From NCBI RefSeq assembly GCF_019175385.1, contig NC_083337.1:46476938-46540937 (forward strand): DNA of 64,000 bases. The letters are read 5' to 3'. The notes beneath the pieces were generated by a model that saw nothing but the letters and a program-made list of their open reading frames with translations, did no database searches and was not told the DNA's origin. The first letter of the stretch is position 1. Every line of letters starts with the position of its first letter. Of the stretch, positions 1 to 64,000 are shown in pieces. Source of the DNA: Lycium barbarum (lineage: Eukaryota; Streptophyta; Magnoliopsida; Solanales; Solanaceae). The translations under genes were made by a program, and so were the position numbers.

Positions 1-2368
1 GTGTTCCAAATTGCTTGCATCGGATTACCCATAACCGACTACTTAGGTCCGAATACATATATCAAAAGGGTTATGACGGAATGCTTATAGACATGTGGGG
101 GTCCAGAACGAGTTTCGGGTCAATCGGAGCTAGTATACAAAAGTTACGAGCGTTCGAAGTACAGAACGCTCTATAATCATTTCAGAAGCTTTTCTTGGAA
201 AACCAAAGCTGTAATTAGGTTAACTGCCTTTTAGACATGATTGTGGATCAAACCAAATAGAACTCTTGGAATCATACGTACGTCGGAACACTTAAGTCAG
301 AATAAATATATCAAAAGGGTTATGCCAGGATACTTAATTCCACATATTTATATCGGAATGTTCAGATCAGAGTACCTACTTGTATCGGAATTTCTCATAT
401 CGGAACACTTATGCCAAATACTTACGTCAGAACATTTGTGTTGGCATGATTAGCCCAGAAGGTTTACATCAAAATACTTAGATCACGATTCGCCTATCAG
501 GCTCATTTGACACTTAAGTTAGGGAAAACATACAGATCACAGACAGACTCAGAATTTCAGAATGGAGTAACCTCAAGATACATATCATATCATATCCTAC
601 ATGGCTCTAGGGCATGCCAAGGAAAGAAAGGTAAGCCTCACATACCTGAGTGACGACCAACTAGTTGCGCTTACGCATCCAACTTGTTTGCTTACATGCA
701 AGAGAGTTTATCCATCTTGTCAATCTACGTCCAAAAGGATTCATTCATTCGTTAGACTCGTTGTCACATACTTGCCTTAACCTTTCAAACACGTTTACTT
801 ATGTTCTGCCGGAATTTCGGCAGCATCTCCCCTGTAAATCTACCAACCCCGAGAATAAGGCTCGACCCCAAATCAACAACAACCCAACCAACAAGCAAAC
901 TATAGCATCATTAATCAATTCAAGAATACGTTTTAACATTAAGCGCTCTTTTTACATAATCCAACAACGTTCGCAATATTTCAACTAATATCAACGTTTA
1001 TACATCCGATTACTAATCCAAGACCATTCAATCAATATTCAATAATGCTTTAAACAATTCACACAATTCTCCAAACAATCCAATAACGCACCATAGAACC
1101 CGAAATCTTCCAACTTCCATAGGAGCCATCACAACACATTTCTTTCTTCAAAGTTCACAAACTACACCAACAAACCATACATTAACAACATTATTATCAT
1201 AATTACAAGAAACTACACTTGATTCAAATTAGCTTCCAAAACAGCCCACAACAATTACGACACCAACTAGGATCATTAAACTCTCATTTACATCACATAA
1301 CCCACAACACAATAACCCAAACATACTAAATAAATTAGTTCATTCTTAGACATGCAAAGCAGTCCATTTTCGGCCAGCCCCTTCAACACACAAATTCCAT
1401 GATTTTTCATTCATTCCACACTCCACAACATATACAACAATCAAATAACATTGAATAAAATTTGTTCATCATGTTTACACCAAGGAGACATACACACGGC
1501 CTCAACTTCCAACACACAACATCCTTATTTTCATGAGTTTTACCTATTCCAACACATAACAACATGTTTCAACATCCATAAAACACACAAGAAAGGATTG
1601 AATCTTACCTTCTCCACCCTATTCTTCCACATGGCTAGAAGTGTTTCCTTGCAAGATAAATGGTTTTCTCATTCTAACAACTACTCCATATGATAAAGGA
1701 CCTTCCAATTGGTATGAAAGCTTGAAGAAAACAATTTTCCATGAACAATTTATGGGGCTGGTTCGGCCAGCCCCTATTTCGTTTCCATCTTTTTTTTTTT
1801 TTTTTGTTCTTTGTTTTCTTTCCTTTCTTTCTAATTCTCCAACTTTTAAATAAAAGATGAACAAGTCATCTTCTCATATTTGCACCCTAGTCCCTCAATT
1901 ATGGTCACATGCCCCCTTTCTTTCTCTTCTAGACTTTTCTTCCAATTTCTTGATTTTTCTTGAATTGTTTTACTTGGTCAAAGAAGACCAAGTGTCTTCT
2001 CCCTTTTTTTTTTTTTTTTTGCCTTATTTGGTCAAAGAAGACCAAATATTTTTCCATGGTACACTTTAGCCCCTCACTTAATATGAAATAGCCACATGCT
2101 TCTTTCTTTATTTCCTAGAGAATTCTTCCATTTTCTTGAATACTTGTGAAATTACCATTTTACCCCTAGCCTTCCACATTATTTCCATTGACCACTTTGC
2201 GAATTCCCATTTTTATCCTTAACCTTTCTCAATATTTCCATGCAATAATATTCATAAATAATATTCATAACCAATTCGTGCATTAAAATAATTTTCAAAA
2301 ATGGTCTCGCCCTTGACTTTCCACGACGACTCCGGAATTTCCAATCGTACAAGATACGGGCTATAACA
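1..2368 (-). repeat. 3' LTR of family A copy 1, truncated by window edge
   Basis: The LTR begins on the minus strand with TGTTATAGCCCGTATC, directly after the polypurine tract. It runs leftward past position 1, so it exceeds 2.3 kb. A stretch near 600-640 (minus strand GGTATGTGAGGCTTACC) matches 54330-54350 in the other family A LTR and 4340-4360 in the truncated LTR next door. At about 40-80 and 270-480 it contains degenerate short repeats built around TCGGAACACTTA and TCAGAATA words. Small open frames here (for example 665-988 and 1619-1864) lack coding character. Confidence 0.7.
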
Positions 2369-2405
2369 TCCTCCCCCCCTTTAGAACATTCGTCCTCGAA
2401 TGTTC
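2369..2405 (-). promoter_or_regulatory. Polypurine tract with adjacent palindrome, family A copy 1
   Basis: On the minus strand a purine run (AAAGGGGGGGAGGA, 2382-2369) directly precedes the LTR start TGTTATAG. This is the expected primer site for plus-strand DNA synthesis. Just upstream is a perfect inverted repeat with arms GAACATTCG and CGAATGTTC (2384-2405). The same palindrome core occurs beside the PPT at 52726-52747 and at about 62907-62922. Confidence 0.8.
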
Positions 2406-4144
2406 AACTGACCTTATGGGGTTGTATAATACTTTGGGAGGGTCCGTCCTATAGACGCTCTTTCCTCTTTATGCCCGTTCTTCATCCTTTATCTCATTCT
2501 CCTTTAAGGGATTCCTTATACGTCAACAGTTCATTTCTTCGTCTCGGTGCACGACATAGCGAAATTTCTTCCATAAGTCTTCCTTTTACTTCCAGTCGAC
2601 GACATCATTCTCGTCAGCATTCTCATGTCTTGCCATCCACCATTGATCCTTTCGCACACTTAGTTCGCTTACTTACTTGGAAATTTCCTTAACCGTGCTC
2701 TTGCATCACGTTCCTTATCGTGGCCGTTATTCCTTTGGCTCTACTTATTCAGATCGGTCTTCAACCCTTACACACTTTTCCTTTGTTCATGCTGCCACAC
2801 TTGTTCTTTTTACGTACCTATACTTGCAATTTCACCTCAGATAATTCCGTGTGCTTCCAGTTATTCCCCTTTTTGGAAGTCTTGCCCATTCATGTTTCTT
2901 ATCTTTCGCTCCTTTCGGAGATTTAATCTCTTTATTTCCCACCTGCATACTCACTTTCTTCTTCAAACATCATAGTGCTCAGACTGTTCCGTCCTTAACC
3001 TGTAGCGAAGGTGGCAACTCATCTCATAGTACTTGCACCATTTGTTCCCTTACTACTGGTCAGGTTTCTGATGCCTTCTTTCTGCCATAGCATAGATCGT
3101 TAGGGCACACGTGTCCACTGACACCTTCACACATGAGAGATTACACACGTTCATACACACATACACACATAATCAATACCACTAATCCACCATACACTTC
3201 TAGACGCTATTTAAGCCTATCCGAATTCCCGAGCTATGAGGTACTCTTGTCCCTTCACCGGGCTAATCTGTCCCGTTCTACGCATCTTATTAAGGTTTCC
3301 AGTCATCCTACATACTATAGTTTTCACTCAGAATATTCTGGATTTCCATTTGCCTTTTATATCAAAATATGTAGAATTTCTTGAAGACTTCCCAGGGGGT
3401 CTCCCATCCCAGGATTGCTCCCACCTGAGCACGCTTAATTTTGAAACTTGGCTGGAATCCAATGCCTTAATGCCGATATTTTCGCGTCGACTTCCGCGCG
3501 TGACCTTTACTACATAATTTGAGGCTAATCGAGGTCTTACAGATCCCGGGACACCCTCGTAACATGTCTTTTCCTTCACAATTACCATTTTACCCTTTTT
3601 GGGCCTTAGAGCTCATCTTTCGCTTCCGCGTATAATTACTTTTCATCTTAGGTTCCCAGATTCCTGATAGCAACCGATGCTTCTTCGTTTCCCTTACTTC
3701 ATAATTGTCCGGATATCCGTCCGTTCGAATTTCTTACTCACCGCTTTTACATAATAATCTGTAGCGAAATTAGTTGTCAACTTTCTGAATCCTTCATCCG
3801 ACCTTGTTTTCCTTGTACAGAACAAATATCAGTAACGACTTACAGAACATACGGCTACATCACATTCTGGCCATCCGGAACTGCCAATTCCAGGTAACAG
3901 GGCAAATACGTCAATACTGCCCCCGGTGACCTTCCATATCTCCACTTACCTTTTGTGTCGTATGTGAGGCCCATATAAGAGATCTCATTTCCCATAGTTT
4001 GGCTCTATCGCACGATCTGAGACAGAAAGATGGTCAACAATTCCTAAATGCCCTGTAGTCTCCTGTTTATACATGTGGCCGGCAACACACCATAAACAGG
4101 ACTCTACTAGACACGACTTTGCAGACAACCCACGGATAGACCTT
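2406..4144 (-). other. Non-coding internal region of family A copy 1
   Basis: About 1.7 kb between PPT and PBS. I find no gag, protease, RT or integrase similarity in any frame. The 93-aa and 86-aa frames at 3236-3588 overlap the 5S-like module and are not credible genes. The PBS-proximal 500 bp are homologous to 49621-50100. Confidence 0.6.
3382..3490 (-). pseudogene. 5S rRNA-derived module inside family A copy 1
   Basis: Read on the minus strand this stretch follows the plant 5S rRNA gene almost end to end. It starts with a GCGAAAATATCGGC-like 5' part, then ATTAAGCGTGCTCAGG (A-box region), then GGGATGGGAGACCCCC and TGGGAAGTC (intermediate element and C-box region). Similarity to plant 5S as I know it is roughly 70-75% by eye. 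It lies about 670 bp downstream of the PBS. The copy at 50545-50665 occupies the comparable internal position. It is not a functional 5S gene: the 5' region has many substitutions and no T-run terminator follows at once. Confidence 0.75.
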
Positions 4145-4190
4145 GCTCTGATACCACTCTGTCACACCCTGCTTCCCCTAGGGTGTGACA
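4145..4190 (-). other. PBS and 31-bp terminal palindrome, family A copy 1
   Basis: The PBS reads GAGTGGTATCAGAGC on the minus strand (4159-4145), complementary to the 3' end of initiator Met tRNA. Directly upstream is a palindrome with arms TGTCACACCCT and AGGGTGTGACA around the 9-nt loop AGGGGAAGC (4190-4160). The next five bases on the plus strand are AAAAG, the expected target duplication. Its partner would lie left of the window. Confidence 0.85.
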
Positions 4191-5831
4191 AAAAGGAACT
4201 TCAGGAATCATAGACACGTATCGAGACAATATGAAATAACTTATGGAAATCAAGAACATTAAACACCCTAGTGTCTCTAAGAATAGGAGCTTATACATTC
4301 GTCGTTTGTTCATTTCATGTAAATCATGCCAAAAAGAAAGAAGGGTTAGCCTTACATACCTTTAACGCTTATCCGTGATACAATACGTATACGCTGCCCG
4401 AAGTGTCTCAACCTATATTAAAACGTCAAGACTATGGTTAAGCTACGGAAAGGCATAAAACGTACTTCATCGTTAGTAGCTTATTTCTAGTCAATTGGGC
4501 AGCACTTCCCCTATATCGCTCAATTCCCTCTCATTTAAGCCAACTATACAACAACCAACATAGCATCAACCAAGGCACGTCTAAGTTATCGTATCAAGAA
4601 TTAGTTAAAACAAGACCCAAGGACATCCAAACAGCCCACACCATTCCAACATTCAATAATCGCCACCATAACGACTACGACATATTCAAGTTATTCTTAA
4701 TAATCTATAGCCATAACACTTCATCGAAACGTTCTTATAACAGCCCAACAATTACAACAACACAATGCATAATCTTAACTACACTTAATCCTCCAATTCA
4801 ACAAGAACAACAACACGCCCAAAACAGCCTCTAATTACTCAAGTTCTTAAAACATCCCACTAAATAAATATAACTTCAACTTTAACCATCAAATTCCTTT
4901 ACTTTCATCATTTAATCCATGACAACAACAACAACAATACTAATTAAAATTAACCCATCATTTCTAAATTAAAACAGCCCCCCACGGCCCAAACAAAACC
5001 TCAACATCAACATACCATTTCTTACATCCAATTTCACATCTACCAATTTATGCAAAGTCCAAACCACCTCTAAAACATGCAAGCGGGAATTAAATCTTAC
5101 CTTAACAAGCTTGGCTCCTTAACGTTGCTAAAATTTGTAGCTTCAAATAACAAACGTTCTTGCTGCCCCCAATGGATTAATTCACGTTATTAATCACCTT
5201 GAAATGTGTAGAACACCTTAAAACTAACTTTTATTAACAAAAACTTGGACTCCCTCAAGATCAGCCATGGCCGTGAGTTGCCATGGCTGTTGTAATCTTT
5301 ATTTTTTTTCCCTCTAATTGGACTTGAAATTCATTAACTCAATTGTGTAGAAGGTGGGGGAGGAGCTGGCCGTGAGCTTCACTAGGTGGCTGCCATGGCT
5401 GGTCGTGACTCTCTCTAGCTCACTTTGTGAAGATGACATGCTTCTCTCTCCTATTTCACTTTGTGAATGAATAATGGTATCACTTAGTCATCAAATTGGA
5501 TTATATATGCTGCCTATGAAGTGGAAAAGTGTCCCACTATGGCATGGACCAATCAGATTTGGCCATGCTATAGTGGGGTCTATTTAGCACTACTTAGGCT
5601 TAATTAATCTTAATTAATTACTAATCCCCACTTAATAATTTAATCATGGTTAATTAATCCCTAATCTCTACTAGTATTTCTACACCAATTGAAATTTATA
5701 AGCAAGTCGTGCACTTATTAAAAATCGGGGATTAAAAGTCCTCATCTCAAAACCCCACAATTTATCTTGTCCTTGAACGTATATCGATTAGCTTACGAGT
5801 AATTCAATGTATAAAAATACGGGGTATAACA
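4191..5831 (-). repeat. Truncated gypsy LTR (TGTTATACCCC family)
   Basis: On the minus strand an LTR starts at 5831 with TGTTATACCCCGTATTTTTA. It runs to 4191, where the family A element interrupts it in LTR sequence equivalent to about 54430 of the other family A LTR. The shared stretch GGTATGTAAGGCTAACCC lies at about 4360. The missing last 0.85 kb could lie beyond the left window edge if copy 1 inserted here. No coding sequence. About 5260-5400 has repeated CCATGGCTG and GGCCGTGAG words. Confidence 0.65.
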
Positions 5832-44309: not shown

Positions 44310-47300
44310 TGTTGACACCTAATTTTTGACCTCCCATAATTTATTTTAATTACCAAAAGTCCTTGAGTAATAAACAGAGTGAAATATGTATTTTCAGAAG
44401 TCAAAATGATTTTATAAAAGTATTTAGATAATATTTTACCATTTTTATTTGGTAAAATAATTTCCATAATGTTATAAATCATTTGGAAATTAATTTACCT
44501 ATTATGACACTTTTGTCAAATTTAACCAAGAAAGTAAATAATTTACAAATAATTATTTATTTAATTATTTAAATTGTTAAATTGTCAGTTAGTAAGTATT
44601 TTACCTAGTTTAGCTCAAGGAATCTGATCAATTAAGTAAACTAATCCTTTTACCCCTCAAGTCTTAATGTTGAATGCCCAATGGGCATTTGTGTAATTTG
44701 TTAGAATTAATCATAATTAGTTAAAGTATTTAATTGTGGTTAATTCCACAAATTACTCAAATATTGGCTAATTGTGGCTTTAATTGAAGCAGCTAATTTG
44801 CATGGCCTAAAGTTGATTAAGGTCACTATTGCAATACTAGCCTTTAATGGTTTGGTTGAGTTTAAATCTGGCCTTAATTAAAATGACCAATTTCATGGTT
44901 TAGAGTCAATTGAGGTTATATTTGCAACTTAAATCCATTAGCATAATAATCATGTTCATTAGATTGGTTAATTGGTTAATTAAGTCATACTTGGCCATTA
45001 AATTAAAGAATTTTTTATTTTTTCTAATTTTGTCCATTTAAATTTTGTCGTATACACACACATATACATGGATATACACGTCTATATATGTATACCATGT
45101 ATACATGTGTGTATACATATATACAAATGGGCGGCCCCTTTTATTTCCCTTTCAAATTGGCCAAGCCCAGCCCAAAATAGGGCTAGACCCAGCCCAAGTG
45201 GCAATACATATACTCCATCCTTCAGCCAAACGAACCCCTTAAGGGGTCATTTGTTTTTTGCCATGGTTTCTTTGTGAAACCCTAGCCTCCATGAGGCGAT
45301 ACCATCTCGCTCCTACGTCACTCGCCATTTTTGGCAAGCTTGTAGGCGTACGATGCCTCTCCCAGGTCTGGTATAACCAGATCAAGCAATGCATTAATTG
45401 TTCCAACCCCTTTTCACCAAACGCAGCCCAAACGCAGTATATCTTACTACTTTGTTTTGCTTTTTATGCGAGCCAACTTTAAAATGACTGAAAATCCTTA
45501 ATGGTTTTTGTTCTTACTCAGTTTGAATACTATGTTCTTATTGGTTCATGATGAACCAAGTATATTGACAACTTTTGGGTCAGATCTGGCCCTTGAATAC
45601 GTACTTGATTTAATCTCAACCTTTAACCTTTGACTGCTGTAAGGATATGCCAATTCTCAGAATTAGAGGTTGTCCCACATCGAAATCAAATTAGGGTTTG
45701 GGGATTTTTATTTAAAGGTCCTTATTCTCCGTTATTTGGACAAGTCTGAGCATATTGAAAACTCCATTACTCACAAAACTCAAAAATACCTAAGATTTAA
45801 AAATATTTGAGATCTTTAATCTTTTTTTGAGTTAAGTAAAATTTTAAGAGCTTATTTTCTCTTGTTTTTCTGGGTTTGTGTGTGGCTGAGTGTGATTGAG
45901 GAACGAAGGAATCATCCAAGTTCATTCTCAATCAAGGCTTTGCCCCAAAAAGGTAATTTTCTATCTTTTTGGCTTTTATTTTGTTTAATCATGTGTTAGT
46001 CGTTATATGCTTAGTCATTTAGTCTGTTTTTACTTATTTTGAAATTGTAGTTAGTTAGTGTAAAGCTGTGTAAGGTCATGTATTAGTTAAATGTTCATTA
46101 TTATGATATGTTAGTTTGTTTAGACTGTTTAACTTAGTTTAATGTTATAGTTAGTATAAAATCATGTGTTAGATAGATGTTTACTATACAAGTGTGATTA
46201 GAAGTGTGTTAAATGGCCTTTAGGTTAAATAATAGATGGTAAAAACATCCTTGTTAACAGTGTTGGTTGATATGGACTCTATATGATAAAAAATGATTTA
46301 TGTTGGGATTGTTGTTTTTGCTTTAAAAAAAGTAAGAGACTGTCCTTACATATATGTGCTTTGAACCATGATTAAGTTGTCTAAATCCCATTTTTTCGAG
46401 TCATAACAGCTTGAACAAGTAATTGCATTTTAAGACCTAAAACTGTTATGTTCCATATGTCCATTTATTGATTGATTAGAGAATATGGGAACTTGTCTAG
46501 CCTCTATCTAGTTTTCATGTTTGGTTTGGTTTAGCTTGTTTGTCTCTAACCACTTGTCTAAGGATGTAATAGAAAAGGTTTCAAAGCTGTTTTGTCTGTG
46601 TTTGTTGGAGTTTCATGAAACTGTAATGAGTTCTTACCATTCTAAAGTTGCTATAGTATGGTGTGGTGTCCAAACTATTGAGAGCACACATTTTAAAACC
46701 AACATTATAAGGTAATGATCTGGCACAATTTCCATTATGTATTAAGAGATGTTTCTTTTGTGTTGTGATTGGAACTTTGCTGTTTGAAAAGATTTTTAAC
46801 TCAATAGTGAACTGGACTTTAAATCCATGATCCATTCTATTTTTCACCCTTTGCTTGGGTACTGTTGAATTGAGTGCATTATTTTACCCAGGCCAGTTTG
46901 TTCCCCCGTTTGGTCATATATTTGTCTCTATTAAAAAAAGGGAGAGAAATCCTAAGTTCTTGATCTCATCTAGGAGGTTTTTGTGAATTATCTGCATACT
47001 TATGTTGTTGTCAGATTTTAAAGAAAGGTTGGTCCTGTTTCTTATGATCTTAAGTCTTGTTTGGTACTTGCGTTAGTCAACTGGTTTACTAGTTAAACTT
47101 TCATGATAGTTGGAGTCTTGCATTAGACTAATCACTGGTTAAACTTTAAAGGGATCAATCCAACACACAATTTTGAATTTTCAAATATCTTCACATTTAT
47201 ATGGTCTGTTGATATATGCAAAGTAAATGTGTAGGTGAATGGAAGCCTTATTTGCTTAAACTTTATCCTAGATAGCTGATTTAGCATTAGTATATAACTG

Positions 47301-49589
47301 TATTATAAGGAATAGTCCACCTAGTATACACAACCATTTGAGAATTCTATCAGGATTAAAGAGTCCTAGCTGATATTTGTGACTTTAATTGAGTAGTTAG
47401 CTGCATTATTTCTTCTCTATAAAATCCTTGGTTTACCTTTACTTGGGAATCTGTATAAAATGGGATATACTGAGTAAAAAATAATAGCCTGAAGTCTCTA
47501 GCCTGCCTTTATTTTGTGATCTGTTAAAAGTGTCAATGCTCCTCACACTTACAGGTTTTTAGTCTTTTCTTTGAAAACTTGTTTCACACTCTTTTTCCTT
47601 GTTTTTGTTGATATACATGCTATGTATACGAAATATACATGACTTGTGTACATCATGCTGTATACAAAAAGTATATTTTGAACTGTATTATAAGGAATAG
47701 GCCACCTAGTATACACAACCATTTGAGAATTCTATCAGGATTAAAGAGTCCTAGCTGATATTTGTGACTTTAATTGAGTAGTTAGCTGCATTATTTCTTC
47801 TCTATAAAATCCTTGGTTAACCTTTACTTGGGAATCTGTATAAAATGGGATATACTGAGTAAAAAATAATAGCCTAAAGTCTCTAGCCTGCCTTTATTTT
47901 GTGATCTGTTAAAAGTGTCAATGCTCCTCACACTTAAAGGTTTTGAGTCTTTTCTTTGAAAACTTGTTTCACACTCTTTTTCCTTGTTTTTGTTGATATA
48001 CATGCTATGTATACGAAATATACATGACTTGTATACATCATGCTGTATACAAAAAAGTATATTTTGAACTGTATTATAAGGAATAGGCCACCTAGTATAC
48101 ACAACCATTTGAGAATTCTATCAGGATTAAAGAGTCCTAGCTGATATTTGTGACTTTAATTGAGTAGTTAGCTGCATTATTTCTTCTCTATAAAATCCTT
48201 GGTTAACCTTTACTTGGGAATCTGTATAAAATGGGATATACTGAGTAAAAAATAATAGCCTAAAGTCTCTAGCCTGCCTTTATTTTGTGATCTGTTAAAA
48301 GTGTCAATGCTCCTCACACTTAAAGGTTTTGATTCTTTGCTTTGAAAACTTGTTTCACACTCTTTTTCCTTGTTTTTGTTGATATACATGCTATGTATAC
48401 GAAATATACATGACTTGTATACATCATGCTGTATACAAAAAAGTATATTTTGAACTGTATTATAAGGAATAGGCCACCTAGTATACACAACCATTTGAGA
48501 ATTCTATCAGGATTAAAGAGTCCTAGCTGATATTTGTGACTTTAATTGAGTAGTTAGCTGCATTATTTCTTCTCTATAAAATCCTTGGTTAACCTTTACT
48601 TGGGAATCTGTATAAAATGGGATATACTGAGTAAAAAATAATAGCCTAAAGTCTCTAGCCTGCCTTTATTTTGTGATCTGTTAAAAGTGTCAATGCTCCT
48701 CACACTTAAAGGTTTTGATTCTTTGCTTTGAAAACTTGTTTCACACTCTTTTTCCTTGTTTTTGTTGATATACATGCTATGTATACGAAATATACATGAC
48801 TTGTATACATCATGCTGTATACAAAAAAGTATATTTTGAACTGTATTATAAGGAATAGGCCACCTAGTATACACAACCATTTGAGAATTCTATCAGGATT
48901 AAAGAGTCCTAGCTGATATTTGTGACTTTAATTGAGTAGTTAGCTGCATTATTTCTTCTCTATAAAATCCTTGGTTAACCTTTACTTGGGAATCTATATA
49001 AAATGGGATATACTGAGTAAAAAATAATAGCCTAAAGTCTCTAGCCTGCCTTTATTTTGTGATCTGTTGAAAGTGTCAATGCTCCTCACACTTAAAGGTT
49101 TTGAGTCTTTGCTTTGAAAACTTGTTTCACACTCTTTTTCCTTGTTTTTGTTGATATACATGCTATTGTATACGAAATATACATGACTTGTATACATCAT
49201 GCTGTATACAAAAAAGTATATTTTGTATACCTTATAAATGAAATTCTGAAAACCTGTCTATTTACCCTAAGTACTGGGCCAAATCTGCCCCTTTAATTAT
49301 TTATCTTAGGGGCCTATGTGTGGATTGTGGTGACCTGGTCGTCAGTCCAAGTCATTTGGGCCCAATCATCCGTTCTCTCTGAGCTTTGAGGAAACCATGC
49401 TCATTTGTTTTTATCTAAAGTTCATTAAGAATATATATTGGCTGTATGTGTGTGCTTATGTATCCATGTCCACTTTAATGTTTCACTTACTCTTTAAATT
49501 TTCTCTTACTCTCACAAGATAGTTTAGGTACTCTCTAATCATTATCTTCTTTTTCCCGTTTGTGTTGCACATGATTTCTGCTAGGGTCA
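44310..49589 (+). repeat. Ogre 5' LTR, first part
   Basis: 5.28 kb before the family A insertion, continuing at 55509-56867, so the whole LTR is about 6.6 kb. The first 500 bp match the minus-strand fragment at 8500-9076. 45049-45125 is rich in TATACATG and GTATAC palindromic words. 47297-49226 is a tandem array. No coding sequence; frames at 45045-45482 and 46521-46715 have no family support. Confidence 0.75.
47297..49226. repeat. Five tandem repeats of about 386 bp in the Ogre LTR
   Basis: Units start near AACTGTATTATAAGGAATAG at 47297, 47682, 48068, 48454 and 48840, with spacing of 385-386 bp. Units 3 and 4 look identical over long stretches, unit 1 is the most diverged, and unit 5 has small changes. 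Each ends in a block with several GTATAC and TATACATG words able to form small hairpins. The repeated 94-aa minus-strand frames come only from the repeat period. Confidence 0.93.
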
Positions 49590-49637
49590 TGTCACACCCT
49601 AATCTCGCTAGGGTGTGACAAAGTGGTATCAGAGCTG
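49590..49637 (+). other. Terminal palindrome and PBS of family A copy 2
   Basis: Arms TGTCACACCCT and AGGGTGTGACA around the loop AATCTCGCT (49590-49620), then AAGTGGTATCAGAGCTG, the initiator-Met PBS. The 3' end of the element (55475-55503) has the same arms around AGCGAGATT, the loop in reverse orientation. Confidence 0.92.
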
Positions 49638-52600
49638 TTCGTCCTAGGGGTTGTCTGCAAAGTCGTGTCCAGTAGAGTCCTGTTTATAGGTGTGAAGCCG
49701 GCCACATTTATAAACAGGAGGCTGCAGGGCATCTAAGGATTGTTGACCTTCTTTCTGTCTTAGATCGTGCGATAGGGCCAAGTCATAGGAAAATGAGATT
49801 CCTTATACTAACTTTTGATTTCAACAGAAGCATAGTATCGACGGAAGAAGGTGAGTGGTGATATGGAAAGTCACAGGGGTAAGTTTTGGTATTTTCATTC
49901 TTCTACTTGAAATTGGAAGCTCTGGATGGCTGGGATGTGTCGTATAGCTGTATGCCCTGTGAGGCATTGTTGGTATTTGCTGCATGCAGATTCCGAATAG
50001 TAAGAATTGTAACAGAAGACTCTGCAAGAAATCTTTCAAAATCAGGCCATTTAGTTAGGTACGCCCAACAAGAGGAAGCGTGGGAAGGAAATATTGCAAA
50101 TAGACAACAAGTGAGGTGCGTTGTTTCAGAAGGGTTATGGATTTGGCATGGTATGAAGAACGATTGCGAGAAAGACGGTTAGTAGCCCGAAGGATTAAAA
50201 TGGATAACATTCGAGGTTTAGTAGGAGCAAGGTCTGTTGGGAGATTCAGGGAAAGTCGACAATCAGTTTTGTTGTAAATTATTATATAAGAGTGGCGAGC
50301 AGAAGCCCAAGAAGATGGATAATCGAGTATTTATAAGTAATGGCGACGAAGGTGTGTTCCCTACCATCGGGAATCTAGGAATCTAGGACGAAGGGTAGTT
50401 ATACACATAAGTGGAAGGTGAATATTAAGGATTGAAAAGGGTGAAATAGTAATTGCAAAGGGAAGGACGTGTTACAAAAATGTCTCGGAATCTGTAAGAC
50501 TTCGACTTGCTCCAGATCATGTAATGGAGGGCATGCGATGAGGTGGATGCGATTATATCAGCGCTAATGCACCGGATTTCATCGGAGTTTCAGGGTTAAG
50601 CGTGCTGGGGTGAGAGAAATCTTAGGATGGGTGACCCCTTAGGAAGTGCACTAAAAGTTCTGCAAAAGCAGACATAAAAGGAAAATGAGAAGCTAGAGTA
50701 GCCTAAGGGAAATTAGAGTATACGTAATGGTTGGAAACCTTAAGAGGTCGCGTAGGACGAGGCAGACTAGACCGGTGAAGAGAAAGAGAGTGCATCCTAA
50801 CTCTAGAACTAGGATGAGGTTGAATAGCGTTTGGAGATATTTTGTAGGTGAGATGGTAGTAATTATATATACATATATATGAATGTGTATGATATCCCAT
50901 ATGTGATTGTATCAACGGGTATGGGTACCCCAGCAACCGGGCTAGTGGTATATTGAAGGCATCGAAATTGGATCTAACCCTTATAAGTATTCTGAATGGA
51001 TACAAGACTGTAACTAGCAAGAGGATAAATAAGGCAGAACATACGGTGACGGAACCCCGACCTTAAGAAGATAGTGAAGGGCGGTAGATAATTGCCGAAG
51101 ACGATGGACATTTGGAGGCTATTGATGTATTATGACCTCCTTAATAAGGGGGAAGAACGTATTGGACTTGAAAAGAATTATGATGCTCTCAAGCTCCCGA
51201 AGGGAAATTTATTAGATAGGGGCCAGAGTTCGAAACCTATCGGTATATCAGGAAGGTATCAAAAAGAAGTAGAGACGGATGTGAATAATTGGGTAAGACA
51301 ACTTATGTGGTAAGTGTAATAGGGTCAGTCAGAAAGAATTACGGATTAAGTATGCTTACTCCATAAGGTTTATTCTGTCTTATAGGCACTGTTACAAATG
51401 AGAGCAAAAAGGTGGTACTTCATAGAATTGATTATGAGTGGGATGTGGTGAGAACGTAGCAAGAATGGTAATGCAAGGTAAATAAAGTATAGCGAGGAGA
51501 CGACTAAAGAGGTGACATGTCCTATATGAATAGAGAGTGGATGCAAGTGTGAAACCAATAAGCGAGCCATGAAGCAGTGGATAGGAAAGTTTATGAGACC
51601 TTGTTAGGGAAAGGATCAGCATAATAAGGATGAGAGGGAATGAGTAGGATGAGTGTGGGGAGCGAAGAATGGCTTATATAGAAGTAATATATTTTGAAGG
51701 ACAAAGCAGTACGGAGTTAAAGATAAGATCCCTTGTGCGAAGAATAAAGGATTAATTATAAAATGGAGTAAGTATGGGTATAGAGAGGAAAGGAAATATG
51801 TGAAGTACACAAGCTTAAGGAGTAGTCGTATTATGGGAAAAGGAGGATGCGTCTCCTATGGATACCCTATACTAAGAAAGGACAGATAAAGTACCTAAAG
51901 GAATAAACTGGGAGGAAACATGTGGATATGAGTTGCGAGTTCCAAACATGACAATAAGGCGATAAAGTAAGGATATCATCAATGACAAGTAAAGATATGA
52001 TTATGATTGTCGTTGAAATCAATGTTGAGTACAACATAAGAATAAAAGATTATGACGTACGAGGGGTGCATGAATTCAAGATTGGAGGTCAGGCAATGGA
52101 TTTGCGAATGATATAAGTGAGACCCTAAAAGGGGGGAAGCAAGTAAGGAAAGCGTAAGTGAAGAGATTGAAACGACGAATTCCAAGATGTGACAAGTATA
52201 GGCCCTAAAACAAAAGTGAAATTTATACGGAAATGATACAGCTGTTACCGATATGCATTTCAGTATGGACATTAAGGGAATCTATGAAAGGAACATATTA
52301 AGCTAAAAAAATTGAAAGTAAGGATTGAAAATTGAAGTGTGGATTTGTCTTGAAGGCACCGTAAGGTAAGACTCATAAGGAGAAAGCAAGTGAATAGAGC
52401 GCAAAGATTCTAAACGCACTCAAATATGACAAATAGATGTAGTCTGAAGCCAGAATGTCTGTAGAAACGAGTTCAATGAGATCCAGGGGTTAGTCAGCAA
52501 AGGGATAGAGTGGTTGAAGGGTATTTTTATGATCGGACTAAAAATAATTTGTGAGAAATAAAAGAATTGAGCGATATTCCAATGAAGGGGGGGGGGGGGG

Positions 52601-52725
52601 GGAATGTTAACAAGATATTGAAGTAACAAACATGCTTATTATGGTATAACCGCATTAAAGGAAGAATGATCCGATAACGGCATGTACCAGAGAATAGGAT
52701 TATGGACAGACTACAAGACTAGTTT
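49638..52725 (+). other. Non-coding internal region of family A copy 2
   Basis: About 3.1 kb with many short frames and no recognisable domain on either strand. The first 500 bp align with the reverse strand of 4144-3640. 52587-52602 is a run of 16 G. No gag or pol traces were seen, unlike a recently decayed autonomous copy. Confidence 0.65.
50545..50665 (+). pseudogene. 5S rRNA-derived module inside family A copy 2
   Basis: Starts GGATGCGATTATATCAGC, continues GCTAATGCACCGGATTTCAT, then GGTTAAGCGTGCTGGGGTGA and TTAGGATGGGTGACCCC, and ends near GGAAGTGCAC. Roughly 80% identical by eye to plant 5S rRNA over about 105 nt. The A-box, intermediate element and C-box are close to consensus. No T-run terminator follows within 150 bp on this strand. 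It lies in the internal region, whereas Cassandra elements carry their 5S sequence in the LTR. Confidence 0.85.
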
Positions 52726-52762
52726 GAACATTCGAGGACGAATGTTCCTAAGGGGGGAAGGA
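52726..52762 (+). promoter_or_regulatory. Palindrome and polypurine tract of family A copy 2
   Basis: The inverted repeat GAACATTCG / CGAATGTTC (52726-52747) is followed by AAGGGGGGAAGGA (52750-52762) and the LTR start TATTACACTCCGG. It matches the layout at 2369-2405. Confidence 0.85.
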
Positions 52763-55503
52763 TATTACACTCCGGAAATATTTCGCGTTACCAAAACTGT
52801 AGACGGCTTAGTATGGGCCAAAGGAAGAGTAAAGTTATGCCAGGATTAAGGAGGTTAAGCTTCCGAGGGTTTGAAAGAAAGTTAGGCAAGGTCTGATACG
52901 AAAATTTTAGTCTAAATGGAGGAAATGATATGTTCTAGTATATTGAGGGTTTTGAAGTAAAACAAAAGCTTAAAGTGAAGTTCAGGAAGTCTAGTTTCCA
53001 ACGGAATAAGTGGCTGCTCAATCGGACATCGGGATAAGGAAATATGGACATTACAAGTTGGATGGGCAAGCCAGGAAAGTGGTCTGCACGAACGCGCCAG
53101 GGAGTGGCGCGAACACACAGAAAGCCAAAGGGCCAATACAGCGTGAACGCGCCCCCACGTGGCGCGAACGCGCTGCACAAAAAATTGAAAATCAAGTTCG
53201 GAAGAAAGAAGGTGGTGTTATAAGAAGGTAATAATAACATATATACGACATTTGGAGACCATATGGTGTAAATTAGTTCATATGTTATTTGACGAAAAGC
53301 CCTTGCTGCGGCAAGCTAAGTAGGGGCCCACATACCGGAGCTTCATAAAGGACATATGATGAGACATATGAATAGTATATGGAAAGTTGAGCAAGTCCTA
53401 AGTAGGACCCTTAAGCCAAAAATGGGCATAAGCCCTCCAAAAGGGCGATTTAAGGAAACATTTTCGGATGATCTGACTTCGAGGGGCAAACACGGCATTA
53501 TAAGTTTAGAATTTAGGAAAACTCCCAAAAATAAAAGTTGTAGATAATTGAAAGGGATTTCCAAAAATAGGTCGTGGGCCCTCACACGATAGCGGGATCA
53601 AGCGTTATGACCTTTTTACTGAACGAAGGTCCAGTCAGAAAGTTTAACTCTGCGCGAACGCGCCCAAAGGGGGCGCGAACGCGCAGAAGGATTTTATGTC
53701 GGTTCTGGACAAAACCCAGAACCTTATAAAAAGGGGCCAAGCCCCTATTTTTCTTCATAAAACACTCAAAAACCTCTCCAAAATTCTGGAGAGTTCCCCC
53801 CCAACTCCCTAAACCAAATTTTTGCCCAAACCAGGTATAATTCCCAAATTTCGGTCCAGACGGCGTATAGCTGCAACTACAAAACTGTGTATTAACACGT
53901 TGTGGCTTAAGGTCAAGGTGGAGGAGTGAAGATATAGCATTATTATCAAGGGAAAGGTATGAATCTCTTTCTATTTGTTTTAATCTTAATTATTTACGGA
54001 GAATGAGCTGTTAAATTATTGTAAAATATATTCTGTTGGTGAAAATATGGGACGAACACCATATGGGCTGTTCTATGGAATAATTTGATATGTGAAATGA
54101 TGTTATCGATGTTGGTATTGTTATTGTTGTGTTGGTTGTTGAATTGAGAATTCGGGCTAGGCATATAAACAGGGGAGGTGCTGCCCGATTTTCGGCAGAA
54201 TATAAAATAGTATAATTTGAAGTATAGTACAAATGTACGATGAAAAGGCTAACATTAGTGTGAATCATCTTAAATGTAGACTTACGAGCTCGGGCACATA
54301 AGCATAGCCAATAGGAGGTGGAACAGGTATGTAAGGCTTACCCTTTCTTTCTTTTGGCATGTCCTAGAGCCAAAGAAGGTATGATGTGCACCTTGGGGGT
54401 TATTCTATTCTTTGATTCCGAATTTGTTTATGATTCCTATTAACTTTTTGATATGTTTTTAAAAGAGTTCTGTAAGTATTAATGTTCCTAACTTTCGTGG
54501 ACGGTCTCGGATTGCTTCGGAATGTTCGTAGAGGTTTCTGTACTAAAATGTCCATAACTTTCTTATACTAACTCGGATTGCTTCGAAACATGTTGTGATC
54601 CTTCAAGTGTCGTTTGTGTACTTATTCATCGAGTCTTAAAAATTGGTTTATGTGCATATAGTTTCTCACTACTCTGCTCGTGCATGCCTCAATGTATTCC
54701 TTCACTGCGTCCCGGGCCAGGATCTGTTATCGTGCGCCTTCCTCTGCATTGTTCACCGCATCCCTCACTAGAGGGCCGGGATCTGTTATATGTATATATG
54801 TATGTGATGATATGATGATATGGGGGTGGCGACCAAGATGGCATATGATGATTTTTTTCACCGCGTCCCTTGCTAGAGGGCCGGGATCTGTTATATGCAT
54901 ATATGATATATGATTTTGATATGCATGATTTGTGTTTTAAAAAGTAAGCATTTTGGTATTCTGAAAAACGCACTTACTTTCTGTACTTTGATTCTGTTTA
55001 TGGTTCTGTTTGATGTGTTCTATGCTTTACATACTCAGTACACATTCCGTACTGACCCCCTTTCTTCGGGGACTGCGTTTCATGCCACGCAGGTACACCC
55101 AGATGAGTAGAAGACTTTGCTAGAAGGTGTTCCAGCGGGATTGGCGAGCTCCACTTCCTTCTAGAGTGTTGCCGAGTCAGAATATATATATATATATATG
55201 TTATGATTTCTGATTAATGTTAGAGACTTTGCAGACAGAGTCGTGGGTATAGAATGTCAGTCTTGAAAGCGGCTCCATCAGCCGATGTGTCATTTTGCGT
55301 TATGTTATAAATTCCATATGATTACAGATTTACTTGCCTTGAGAACGATGAAAGAATGATTCTGCAAGCCCTTATTATGTAATTCATTTTTATTTGACTT
55401 AAGAGTCCAAAGTGATTATATGTGTAGTAAGAGTTAGTGGGTTCGCTCGGCCTTAAGTAAGGGTCGGGTGCCCATCACACCCTAGCGAGATTAGGGTGTG
55501 ACA
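52763..55503 (+). repeat. Single 3' LTR of family A copy 2
   Basis: 2741 bp. It starts TATTACACTCC (expected TGTTACACTCC) and ends AGGGTGTGACA. 53085-53175 and 53650-53690 carry repeated GCGCGAACGCGCC words. 54330-54350 is the GGTATGTAAGGCTTACCC box shared with other LTRs here. GGGCCGGGATCTGTTATATG-type repeats occur near 54720, 54775 and 54880. No coding sequence. Confidence 0.8.
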
Positions 55504-55508
55504 GGTCA

Positions 55509-60679: not shown

Positions 60680-62888
60680 TGTCACGCCCCAAAACCCACC
60701 CTAGACGTGACCGGCATTCGACGTCATGAACAACATTGGAAGAACCTAAACAACACAATAATAATACTTGAACCCGCCAGGTTCAACTTTCGCCTCCACC
60801 AGTTTATAAATTAAATGTAACAAATCCTGAATACATGAACTAAATCAGTGGAAGTCTTTAATATCATAAAAGTTAATCAAAACGTGACAGCGCCCAAAAG
60901 TTAAATAAACACAACAACTATCCACAAGAATGTATACTATGGAGCTTCTAGGATAAAGAGGTAATAGTTCGACTCCTCGGGACGCAGCCCAAAAACTAAT
61001 AATAAATGAGAAAAATAATAGGGTGTCCCACGAATGAACGTGTGGGCTCACCAAATCAGCAGCAACAGCAAGTCCTTCCTAAGCGCCTGAAGTATCAAGA
61101 ACCTGCTCTCCTCCGTTACCTAACATACCATCAAAAACAACAATGGTATGCCTGAGTACTTCGTACTCAGTGAGTGCCTCGGGGACAATAAGTAATATAA
61201 AAATAAAATATATTAGTACATACAGAAATCAGTTCTGAAAAGATAGTATAAAAACTGTCATTCCATTTTATGATTCTTAATATCGTTTGTTGAACAGTTT
61301 ATAAAGCCATTCCAAAATCTCGATTTCAATTGTGTTTTAAATCGATCAGGCATAAATATCAGTTCCATAATAAAGATGGATATCACAATCGCCCATATAG
61401 GCCCAACTCAATATCAACAACATTGCGTAATACACCGGAATATGGATTCACGGTGGCTACTCTTCCTCCCGAATAGCAAGGCACACTGCGCAATTCACCG
61501 GAATATGGATTGACGGTAGCTACTCTTCCTCCCAAATAGCAAGGCAATTAATACACCCCAGGTAGCGAACCCGGAAGTGGCCGCACTTCTTCCCGAATGG
61601 CAAGGAAATTAATACACTAGGATCCATAGTGGCTACTCTTCCTCCCGAATAGCAAGGCAAACACAACAACAAAGTCCATGGCATAGAAGCCGATTCACAA
61701 TTTGTCTCAAAGTAGTCACACCATCAATAACATTAAAGTTCATTGTGCCATATCGAAAGAATAAGTCATTCCAATCAAAGTTTTGAAAACGTATAACTTC
61801 TTTACAAAAGATTTCCATGTCCCAATTCATCAATGAGAATGTCATCACCAACTCTTAACCATCATTATTAAGCATCTCTCATAGATGAAAACATTCATAA
61901 TATCTTATACATATATAGGGTTTGTTACAATCTAGGGTTAAAGTGGGTTTGTCCCCTCACACACATTAACCACCATTTAGACATGAATTAGAGTCCAAGA
62001 AACGTGAAAAGATTACTTTTACTTTCATTCATTAAAGAATCTTGAATAAAATTTATGCTTCCAACAATGGTTTCATAAGTGATTTTCATTCAAAATAAGT
62101 TTTTAAAAGAGAGACATACCTTAATTTGTTAAATAAGGTTTAACAATTCACTTTTCTAATGAAGAGCACCCAAACCCTAGCTTGAATCACTTTGGGAAGA
62201 ATTTTGTTGCAAACCCTAGGTTTTGATCACACAAATCTTGTTAAGAATCATGGGTTTGATGTTAGAATGATTTAGTAATGTTAAGGATGCCCTTACCTTT
62301 GATTTGAAGACTTGGGGGAATGATTTTCTTCCTTAGGGTTGTTTAGGAAGTGGAGGAATAAACAAAACAAGGGTCTTATTTATATTTTTCTGGTGAAAAC
62401 GGGCCACAGGACGCCTCTGAAGGACGGACCGTCCCTTGGTGGAAATTTCCAGAGAGTTTCTGGAAATTTTTGAGACGTTACGGTTCATGTTATGGCCCGT
62501 AACACGTGTTACGGTCCGTAACGTCTCACCGTAACACAGGCAAAATTTCCAGCGAAGACAAGCTTCAGTGAAACGGGCATAACTTTTTGTAAGTAGCTTT
62601 GTTTGGGCTGGGTGACCTACCGTTGGAAAGCTATTTCAACGATCTACAACTTTCATCAAGGACGTTTTTCCAAATTCGCAACACATTTTCATGAAAATCG
62701 CCCAGAAGACAGACCTACCAAAACTTAGGCGAATTTAAGAGCCCTTAAGAATTTCACTAGTTGGTTTGACTTCAAAACGACCATCCTTCCCCCCGAATTC
62801 ATCAAGAATGGATTCATATAGATATAATATCATCTTAATACTAGATTTTTACACATTCACACCTAGTTCAAGTTTACGAGGTATTACA
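60680..62888 (-). repeat. 3' LTR of the Tekay-like element
   Basis: 2209 bp. 61420-61660 holds four diverged units of about 65 bp around GGCTACTCTTCCTCCCGAAT. 62400-62550 carries GC-rich palindromic words such as GTTACGGTCCGTAAC. Open frames within (60845-61054 and 61633-61851) are not genes. Confidence 0.85.
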
Positions 62889-62925
62889 TTATCCCCCCCT
62901 TAAGATCATTCGTCCTCGAATGAGG
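62889..62925 (-). promoter_or_regulatory. PPT and palindrome of the Tekay-like element
   Basis: On the minus strand CATTCGAGGACGAATG is followed by ATCTTAAGGGGGGGATAA and the LTR start TGTAATACC. It is the same palindrome core as at 2384-2405 and 52726-52747. Confidence 0.85.
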
Positions 62926-62999
62926 ATAGTATTCTAGGAAGGTTATTAATCAACACGAATTTATCCACACAATCACCTTGTGCGCGAATGGTTCAAAAA

Positions 63000-64000
63000 T
63001 TAACTCATACCTGAAATAGGGAACAAGTGCGGATATCTCTTCTTCATGTCCTCTTCCGCTTCCCAAGTAGCTTCCTTAGTATTATTATTTCGCCACAACA
63101 CTTTGACCGACGCAACATCCTTTGTTCTCAACCTTCTAACTTGGCGATCCAAAATCTAAACTTGTTTTTCTTCATAAGACAAGGATTCATCAATCTCAAC
63201 CTCTTCATAGTTCAACACATGAGAAGGGTCAGGTTTATACAACCTCAACATCGACATGTGAAACATCGGATGAACCATTGACATCTCAGCCGGTAATCTC
63301 AACTCATAAGCTACCTTCCTAACTCTTCTATTAATATCACAAGGACCAATGTAGCGAGTACTAAGCTTGCCCTTTTTGCCAAAACGCATTACCCCTTTCA
63401 TAGATGACACCTTCAAGAAAACCTTGTCACCAACAGCAAATTCCAATTCCCTACGCCTCGTGTCCGTATAAGACCTTTGTCTACTCTGAGCGGTCTTTAG
63501 TCGTTGCACAATAAGATTTACCTTTTCGATCGCCTCATGAATTGAATCAGGATCCAACAACTCTACTTCTGTTGGTTCAAACCAACCAATTGGAGACTGA
63601 CAACGCCTCCCATAAAGAGCCTCATAAGGAGCCATCTGAATACTAGCTTGATAGCTATTATTGTAAGAGAATTCCACCAAAGGTAGGTGTTCATCCCAAC
63701 TTCCCCCAAAATCGATTGCACAAGCACGCAATATATCCTCCAAAGTTTGAATAGTTCTTTCTGCTTGCCTGTCAGTTTGAGGATGAAAGGCAGTGCTCAG
63801 TTTCACTCTAGTCCCCAAACCTTCTTGAAACGTCTGCCAGAAATGAGTAGTAAATTGCGTACCTCTGTCAGATATGATAGATGTCAGAACACCATGCAAC
63901 CTAACAATCTCCTTCAGATATAACTTGTCGTACTCTGCAGCGGCATATGACGTCTTTACAGGAAGAAAATGGGCAGACTTCATGAGTCTATCCACGATCA
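63000..64000 (-). pseudogene. Tekay-like integrase and chromodomain end of Pol, one in-frame stop
   Basis: The frame enters from beyond the right window edge. The ORF from 63995 reads MDRLMKSAHFLPVKTSYAAA, with the second integrase Asp in IISDRGTQF and the Glu in DRQAERTIQT. Next come APYEALYGRRCQSPIGWFE and the GPY/F region RYIGPCDINRRVRKVAYEL. The end is VLWRNNNTKEATWEAEEDMK and YPHLFPISGMS with a stop at 63000-63002, the chromodomain-like tail of Tekay/Del elements. A single TAG at 63153-63155 (after SLSYEEKQV) splits it. Otherwise it is intact over 280 codons, so this is one of the younger insertions here. The first integrase Asp lies outside the window. Confidence 0.9.

Follow-up and report, generated by a model that had tools for sequence, protein, structure and literature searches.

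A 64,000-nucleotide stretch of the Lycium barbarum genome (contig NC_083337.1, positions 46,476,938 to 46,540,937; hereafter the window) contains a retroelement, element 1, a putatively non-autonomous long terminal repeat (LTR) element. It has a single complete LTR, at its 3' end; where a 5' LTR would normally stand there is an inverted copy of the hairpin that ends the LTR's unique 5' region (U5). Ends of this kind, which we call mini ends, recur in differing flanks, both in the family of element 1 (family A) and in two other families. We consider it likely that integrase inserted element 1 as a cDNA on which synthesis of the 5' LTR had not been finished, following a minus-strand switch at the U5 hairpin.

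The letters of the window show an identical 5-mer, GGTCA, on either side of element 1 (49585-49589 and 55504-55508), an agreement with a computed chance of p = 0.0015 for two random 5-mers of the window. The palindrome at the 5' end (49590-49620) reads TGTCACACCCT AATCTCGCT AGGGTGTGACA and is followed by a primer-binding site (PBS), TGGTATCAGAGC, which we take to be of the initiator-Met type, and the 3' LTR terminates in ATCACACCCT AGCGAGATT AGGGTGTGACA. A repeat search recovered the terminal inverted repeat over 29 nt at 100% identity (29/29). With up to three mismatches allowed, the 31-mer matched only itself and the element's own 3' end (reversed, two mismatches) within the window, against 0.00 matches expected in a shuffled window, and BLAST found no LTR copy in the sequence directly to the left (45000-49589). 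A prior sequence-only reading had described the GGTCA flanks, the palindrome before the PBS, the single 3' LTR and termini that are exact reverse complements, and these descriptions are borne out, as is its statement that both ends present the same integrase site, each ending in CA.

Element 1 has the PBS adjoining its 5' end and the polypurine tract preceding its 3' LTR that mark LTR retrotransposons, and TG...CA termini go with a fixed duplication of 5 bp in all seven mini-ended elements whose 3' end was located. The first LTR base is 52763, where TG has mutated to TA. Two direct LTRs are absent from element 1, and its relatives have LTR sequence at the missing position. The reverse transcriptase and integrase domains, in that order, of an autonomous Ty3/Gypsy element are also absent, the longest interior open reading frame (ORF; ATG, GTG or TTG starts) being 105 amino acids; Pfam gave no match for two internal ORFs, a pair that excludes the 105-amino-acid frame. 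The one link to Ty3/Gypsy is a neighbouring element that has a Tf2-1 SH3 domain and a similar polypurine box. A close described type is the large non-autonomous LTR element (LARD-type, derived from Ty3/Gypsy), which would be mobilised in trans and which element 1 resembles in its PBS, polypurine tract, long LTR, non-coding interior and 5-bp duplication, and in having relatives with a 5' LTR end; it differs in carrying a 31-bp inverted U5 hairpin for a 5' LTR and hence terminal inverted repeats. A DNA transposon with terminal inverted repeats was rejected because relatives carry LTRs, no ORF is of transposase size, and a PBS and polypurine tract are present. The idea that the LTR's unique 3' region (U3) itself begins with the inverted hairpin, giving an LTR with 30-bp ends, was ruled out by the U3 starts of element 1 (TATTACACTCC), of a second mini-ended copy in the window, element 2 (TGTTATAGCCCG), and of L097, which lies downstream from the mini end of L093 (TGTTATATCCCGC).

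The usual state of the family was read from relatives found by searching the 1.67-Gb genome with the first 311 bp of element 1 (4216 candidates, 40 scored, 30 fetched). In all 29 fetched relatives other than the window locus, the PBS is preceded by a normal U5 (type ...GTGCCCATCACACCCT-loop-AGGGTGTGACA) with LTR sequence upstream. On these 29 relatives a family-wide one-LTR structure, an idea raised by the sequence-only reading, is rejected; mini ends occupy 10 of 3324 exact family A sites. The U5-terminal stem-loop is an ordinary feature of these LTRs, and element 1 is exceptional in carrying an inverted copy of it. The U5 ends of the families fold as hairpins, in a folding run without a shuffle control. 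Elsewhere, the GTGACA-PBS pattern had one match in a viral collection (L001, IMGVR_UViG_3300042301_002682) and three in a prokaryote collection.

We found 210 genome matches to the pattern TGTCAC...GTGACA-PBS, and 30 of these, read in context, comprised 21 normal U5 ends and 9 without upstream U5. Excluding C at position -2, which drops element 1 as well, gave 37 matches, with flanks read for 30 and not for 7; by-eye classification of the 30 flanked rows yielded 23 mini ends without upstream U5, 5 normal U5 ends and 2 rows from one palindromic locus (L080/L081). Scored for orientation against 44 normal hairpins, 18 of the 23 mini-end rows are inverted and 5 normal. Three scores were close (L070, 16 to 13; L074, 23 to 21; element 2, 17 to 19); L074 and element 2 were settled by their own 3' ends, and L070 is assigned provisionally, by its score. 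The exact family A pattern comprises 10 TG-started mini ends among the 3324 sites that share the hairpin and PBS (about 0.3%), five with an inverted loop (element 1, L074, L075, L087 and the C12 copy) and five with a normal loop (element 2, L068, L078, L085 and the C9 copy), the flanks being read for all except C9 and C12 (8/10). Families B and C, other LTR families with the same PBS and a U5 hairpin, contributed 13 exact inverted matches; 9 of them had their flanks read, including two that represent a single duplication. The inverted mini ends L092 and L093 (G000:C8:70137780 and 70154855) lie 17 kb apart behind the same 70 upstream bases and are probably a local duplication of one insertion.

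A comparison of flanks covered 53 normal and 30 candidate rows, with five candidate loci counted twice under two ids and two rows from the L080/L081 palindrome; four loci were unparsed (L009, L039, L054, L069) and three not included (L005, L040, L041). Upstream sequence matched another normal copy in 51/53 normal copies, and for 26/30 candidate rows the normal U5 flanks gave no match upstream; the remaining four rows, from three loci, had only short upstream matches, none in register with the hairpin. On the PBS side, 53/53 normal and 29/30 candidate rows matched normal copies, the match of L079 extending over only 31 nt. This mini-ended locus (G000:C5:70484604-70484651) has an interior like that of element 1 for only about 80 bp, with LTR-like sequence following close by.

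Target duplications indicate insertion of the integrase type. The 3' end was located for seven mini-ended elements, and in 7/7 it carries the same 5 bp as stand before the mini end. The duplication was read at both ends in six: GGTCA in element 1, CTTTT in element 2, GTATC in L087, ATCAC in L074, CTTAT in L068 and AACTA in L078. The seventh, CTTGG in L083, was located by search with a predicted 16-mer, its letters unread; the site is one of 108 genome matches and lies 6986 bp downstream on the correct strand. The 3' terminus of L074 reads GTGAAA, not GTGACA (AA for CA), and the predicted 3' end of L072 is GGGTCGTGACAGCAAT.

Loop variants serve as sequence tags. Element 1 and L074 each carry a 5' loop that exactly inverts their own 3' loop (L074, AGTGGAATT), and in element 2 (AGGGGAAGC), L068 and L078 it equals the own 3' loop in normal orientation, so that own-loop identity is exact, in either orientation, in 5/6 family A elements read at both ends. 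The PBS-side arm of L068 is one base off its 3' end. Among 28 printed family A sites, a non-random sample of the 3324 in genome order, the loops of element 1, L074, L078 and L068 occur once each and that of element 2 not at all. An inverted loop behind a normal CA dinucleotide has no genome-wide occurrence as an exact string in the forms that element 1, L087 and C12 carry; the search did not extend to the L074 and L075 forms. In families B and C, where the search pattern selects for inversion of the PBS-side arm, a mismatched PBS-side arm is inverted along with the loop in most inverted ends, which places the switch within about 6 bases and suggests that about 6 nt of homology may suffice. L069, L077 and C10:107855466 retain normal arm bases and look like later switches. 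The L080/L081 locus (G000:C6:135485417-135485478) consists of a near-perfect palindrome (reverse PBS, hairpin, PBS) with LTR-like sequence on one side and a normal interior on the other; BLAST LTR matches stop about 160 bp before the palindrome, and the locus resembles a longer snap-back product in which the 5' LTR was retained.

In the mechanism that we favor, the minus-strand 3' end would, after plus-strand transfer, copy the first U5 bases and reach the U5-terminal hairpin. There it would quit its template and anneal by one hairpin arm to the complementary arm at a minus-strand 5' end, most simply its own, closing a panhandle, and synthesis would then run to the 5' terminus of that minus strand, beside the CA needed by integrase. 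Entry by the first arm, which pairs with the complement of the second, would copy the hairpin in reverse, as in element 1; entry by the second arm, with both arms copied and the outermost one pairing, would add only CA and leave the loop normal, as in element 2. Both products would end in GTGACA and thus offer integrase two equivalent ends, after which the plus-strand LTR flap may be excised and the gap filled by host repair. We infer the template switch, the flap removal and the gap filling. The sequence-only reading had proposed a single switch through the first arm. That proposal holds up in so far as the inverted LTR terminus is unlike a deletion product and mini ends recur, with matching duplications in 7/7 elements whose 3' end was located; it falls short for half of the family A mini ends (5/10), whose normal loops a first-arm switch does not predict. 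More tentatively, the U5 hairpin may provide a second, LTR-independent route to finish reverse transcription, in which a panhandle on the cDNA's own 5' end yields an integrase-ready terminus in two orientations, skips 5' LTR synthesis and leaves diagnosable one-LTR insertions.

Several observations weigh against this mechanism or favor another. No reverse-transcription intermediate has been observed. The 5' loop of L087, AACCTTACT, departs at 2/9 positions from its own inverted 3' loop, through age or another template, and the same 31-mer stands at C12:10739682; the loop of element 1 is also present in 3/29 fetched relatives (L007, L021, L026), making a sister template possible. Both facts would fit a minus-strand 3' end that copied the minus-strand 5' end of another cDNA, or strong-stop DNA, in the same particle. 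Against such a switch stands the exact own-loop match in element 1, L074, element 2, L068 and L078, although cDNAs of sister RNAs would look identical, and on present data intramolecular and intermolecular switching look alike; we regard the intermolecular form as rather unlikely. Families B and C yielded no recognisable mini end with a normal loop, and the symmetry of the two arms rests on family A (and L086). In family A the C9 copy, for which no flank was read, may be an ordinary LTR that has two substitutions. Searches for the 3' ends of L085 and L093 did not reach them.

Both loop orientations in family A, the inversion of whole hairpins with their arm mismatches in families B and C (for which the search pattern selects) and the PBS-hairpin-PBS palindrome at L080 would also fit a terminal-hairpin transfer like that of parvoviruses, in which the minus-strand 3' end self-primes, a nick resolves the product and refilling flips the hairpin in some products. 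This would require a site-specific nick, for which we know of no enzyme here, and families B and C show only inverted forms, so that we find it improbable. We give about as little credence to an internal jump of reverse transcriptase from the base of the U5 hairpin to the first U3 bases, deleting almost the whole 5' LTR and leaving a mini-LTR. Such a jump accounts for the normal-loop ends, which counts against a hairpin switch there: the U3 of element 2 starts with TGT, and its mini end reads TGT followed by CACACCC. Deletions giving asymmetric LTRs are also described for HIV-1 proviruses in excerpts of PMC9278108. It cannot produce the loop inversion in element 1, L074, L087 and the 13 family B and C matches, and the family A copies with a normal loop (element 2, L068 and L078, read at both ends) would all have to share one breakpoint on 1-3 nt of homology. 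That 29 other fetched relatives possess a 5' LTR end would be expected if element 1 were an ordinary two-LTR insertion that later lost its 5' LTR, or an assembly error; but TG...CA ends inside duplications in seven located elements and an inverted hairpin are not expected of a later deletion, and the presence of 24 different flanks, one duplication being merged, speaks against misassembly, making this explanation very hard to credit. The sequence-only reading had named, as the outcome that would overturn it, a family with full 5' LTRs and a unique deletion in this copy: the norm is as described there, but the copy is not unique, as mini ends recur with matching duplications.

Parvovirus terminal hairpins occur in two orientations, flip and flop. 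The plant mini ends resemble them in their terminal palindromes and two orientations and, as proposed here, in hairpin priming; parvoviruses, however, use no reverse transcription, LTR or integrase, and the mini ends are a rare by-product. Self-priming of strong-stop DNA is a dead end. In HIV-1, titles cited in PMC5198506 describe self-priming by a hairpin in minus-strand DNA, which likewise lets its 3' end prime on itself; there, however, it concerns strong-stop DNA and the first strand transfer, whereas the end of element 1 would form late, at U5, and integrate. Excerpts of PMC9278108 report asymmetric LTRs in 26/88 HIV-1 proviruses, 24 with 3' LTR deletions and 2 with 5' deletions of <100 nt. 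These are like element 1 in having unequal LTRs, a proposed origin in reverse transcription and successful integration; the excerpts mention genome inversions and, in contrast to the situation here, no inverted terminal hairpin for a 5' LTR. A word-based search of open-licence literature found no description of an inverted U5 hairpin replacing the 5' LTR within target duplications.

Mini-ended one-LTR insertions seem to preserve, in nature, the trace of a template switch late in reverse transcription, with loop variants and arm mismatches pointing to the position of the switch. They also suggest that integrase accepts a terminus formed in the absence of a 5' LTR. At about 0.3% of exact family A sites (10/3324), the rate and rules of such switches would become measurable in large plant genomes. 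Annotation that seeks paired direct LTRs is expected to miss such insertions.

Element 2 was detected by scanning the window for the terminal decamer. With the adjoining sequence fetched, it totals 5666 bp with CTTTT at both borders; its interior is 69-76% identical to that of element 1 over 694 and 373 bp, and its first arm differs by one base (ACCCT vs ACTCT). About 45 kb separates elements 1 and 2, which are on opposite strands and differ in loop orientation (inverted in element 1, normal in element 2). By informal judgement, if the ten mini-ended copies of family A were spread uniformly over the 1.67-Gb genome, two of them would rarely share one window.

Table 1. Coordinates of the two mini-ended elements in the window.
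Element	Feature	Position	Strand	Remark
1	5' target-site duplication GGTCA	49585..49589	+	equals 55504-55508
1	31-bp palindromic 5' end, loop inverted relative to 3' LTR end	49590..49620	+	
1	spacer AAG, then 12-nt PBS TGGTATCAGAGC	49621..49635	+	PBS itself 49624-49635
1	non-coding internal region	49636..52750	+	
1	polypurine tract AGGGGGGAAGGA	52751..52762	+	similar box in elements 2 and 3
1	3' LTR, 2741 bp, U3 start TATTACACTCC	52763..55503	+	
1	U5-terminal hairpin TCACACCCT-AGCGAGATT-AGGGTGTGACA, normal orientation	55475..55503	+	exact reverse complement of 49590-49618
1	3' target-site duplication GGTCA	55504..55508	+	
2	5' target-site duplication CTTTT	4191..4195	-	3' copy at G000:C1:46475457-46475461, beyond the window
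2	31-bp palindromic 5' end, loop AGGGGAAGC normal relative to own 3' LTR end	4160..4190	-	
2	spacer and PBS	4145..4159	-	
2	internal region and polypurine tract	2369..4144	-	
2	3' LTR	1..2368	-	extends past the window to G000:C1:46475462

To the left of element 1, window positions 47296-49225 hold about five head-to-tail repeats of about 385 bp that are 97-99% alike. At the other side, positions 60680-63998 on the minus strand contain the end of a polyprotein of Ty3/Gypsy-like character, in which a Tf2-1 SH3 domain is present, plus a 3' LTR whose U5 end folds too, as a weaker hairpin.

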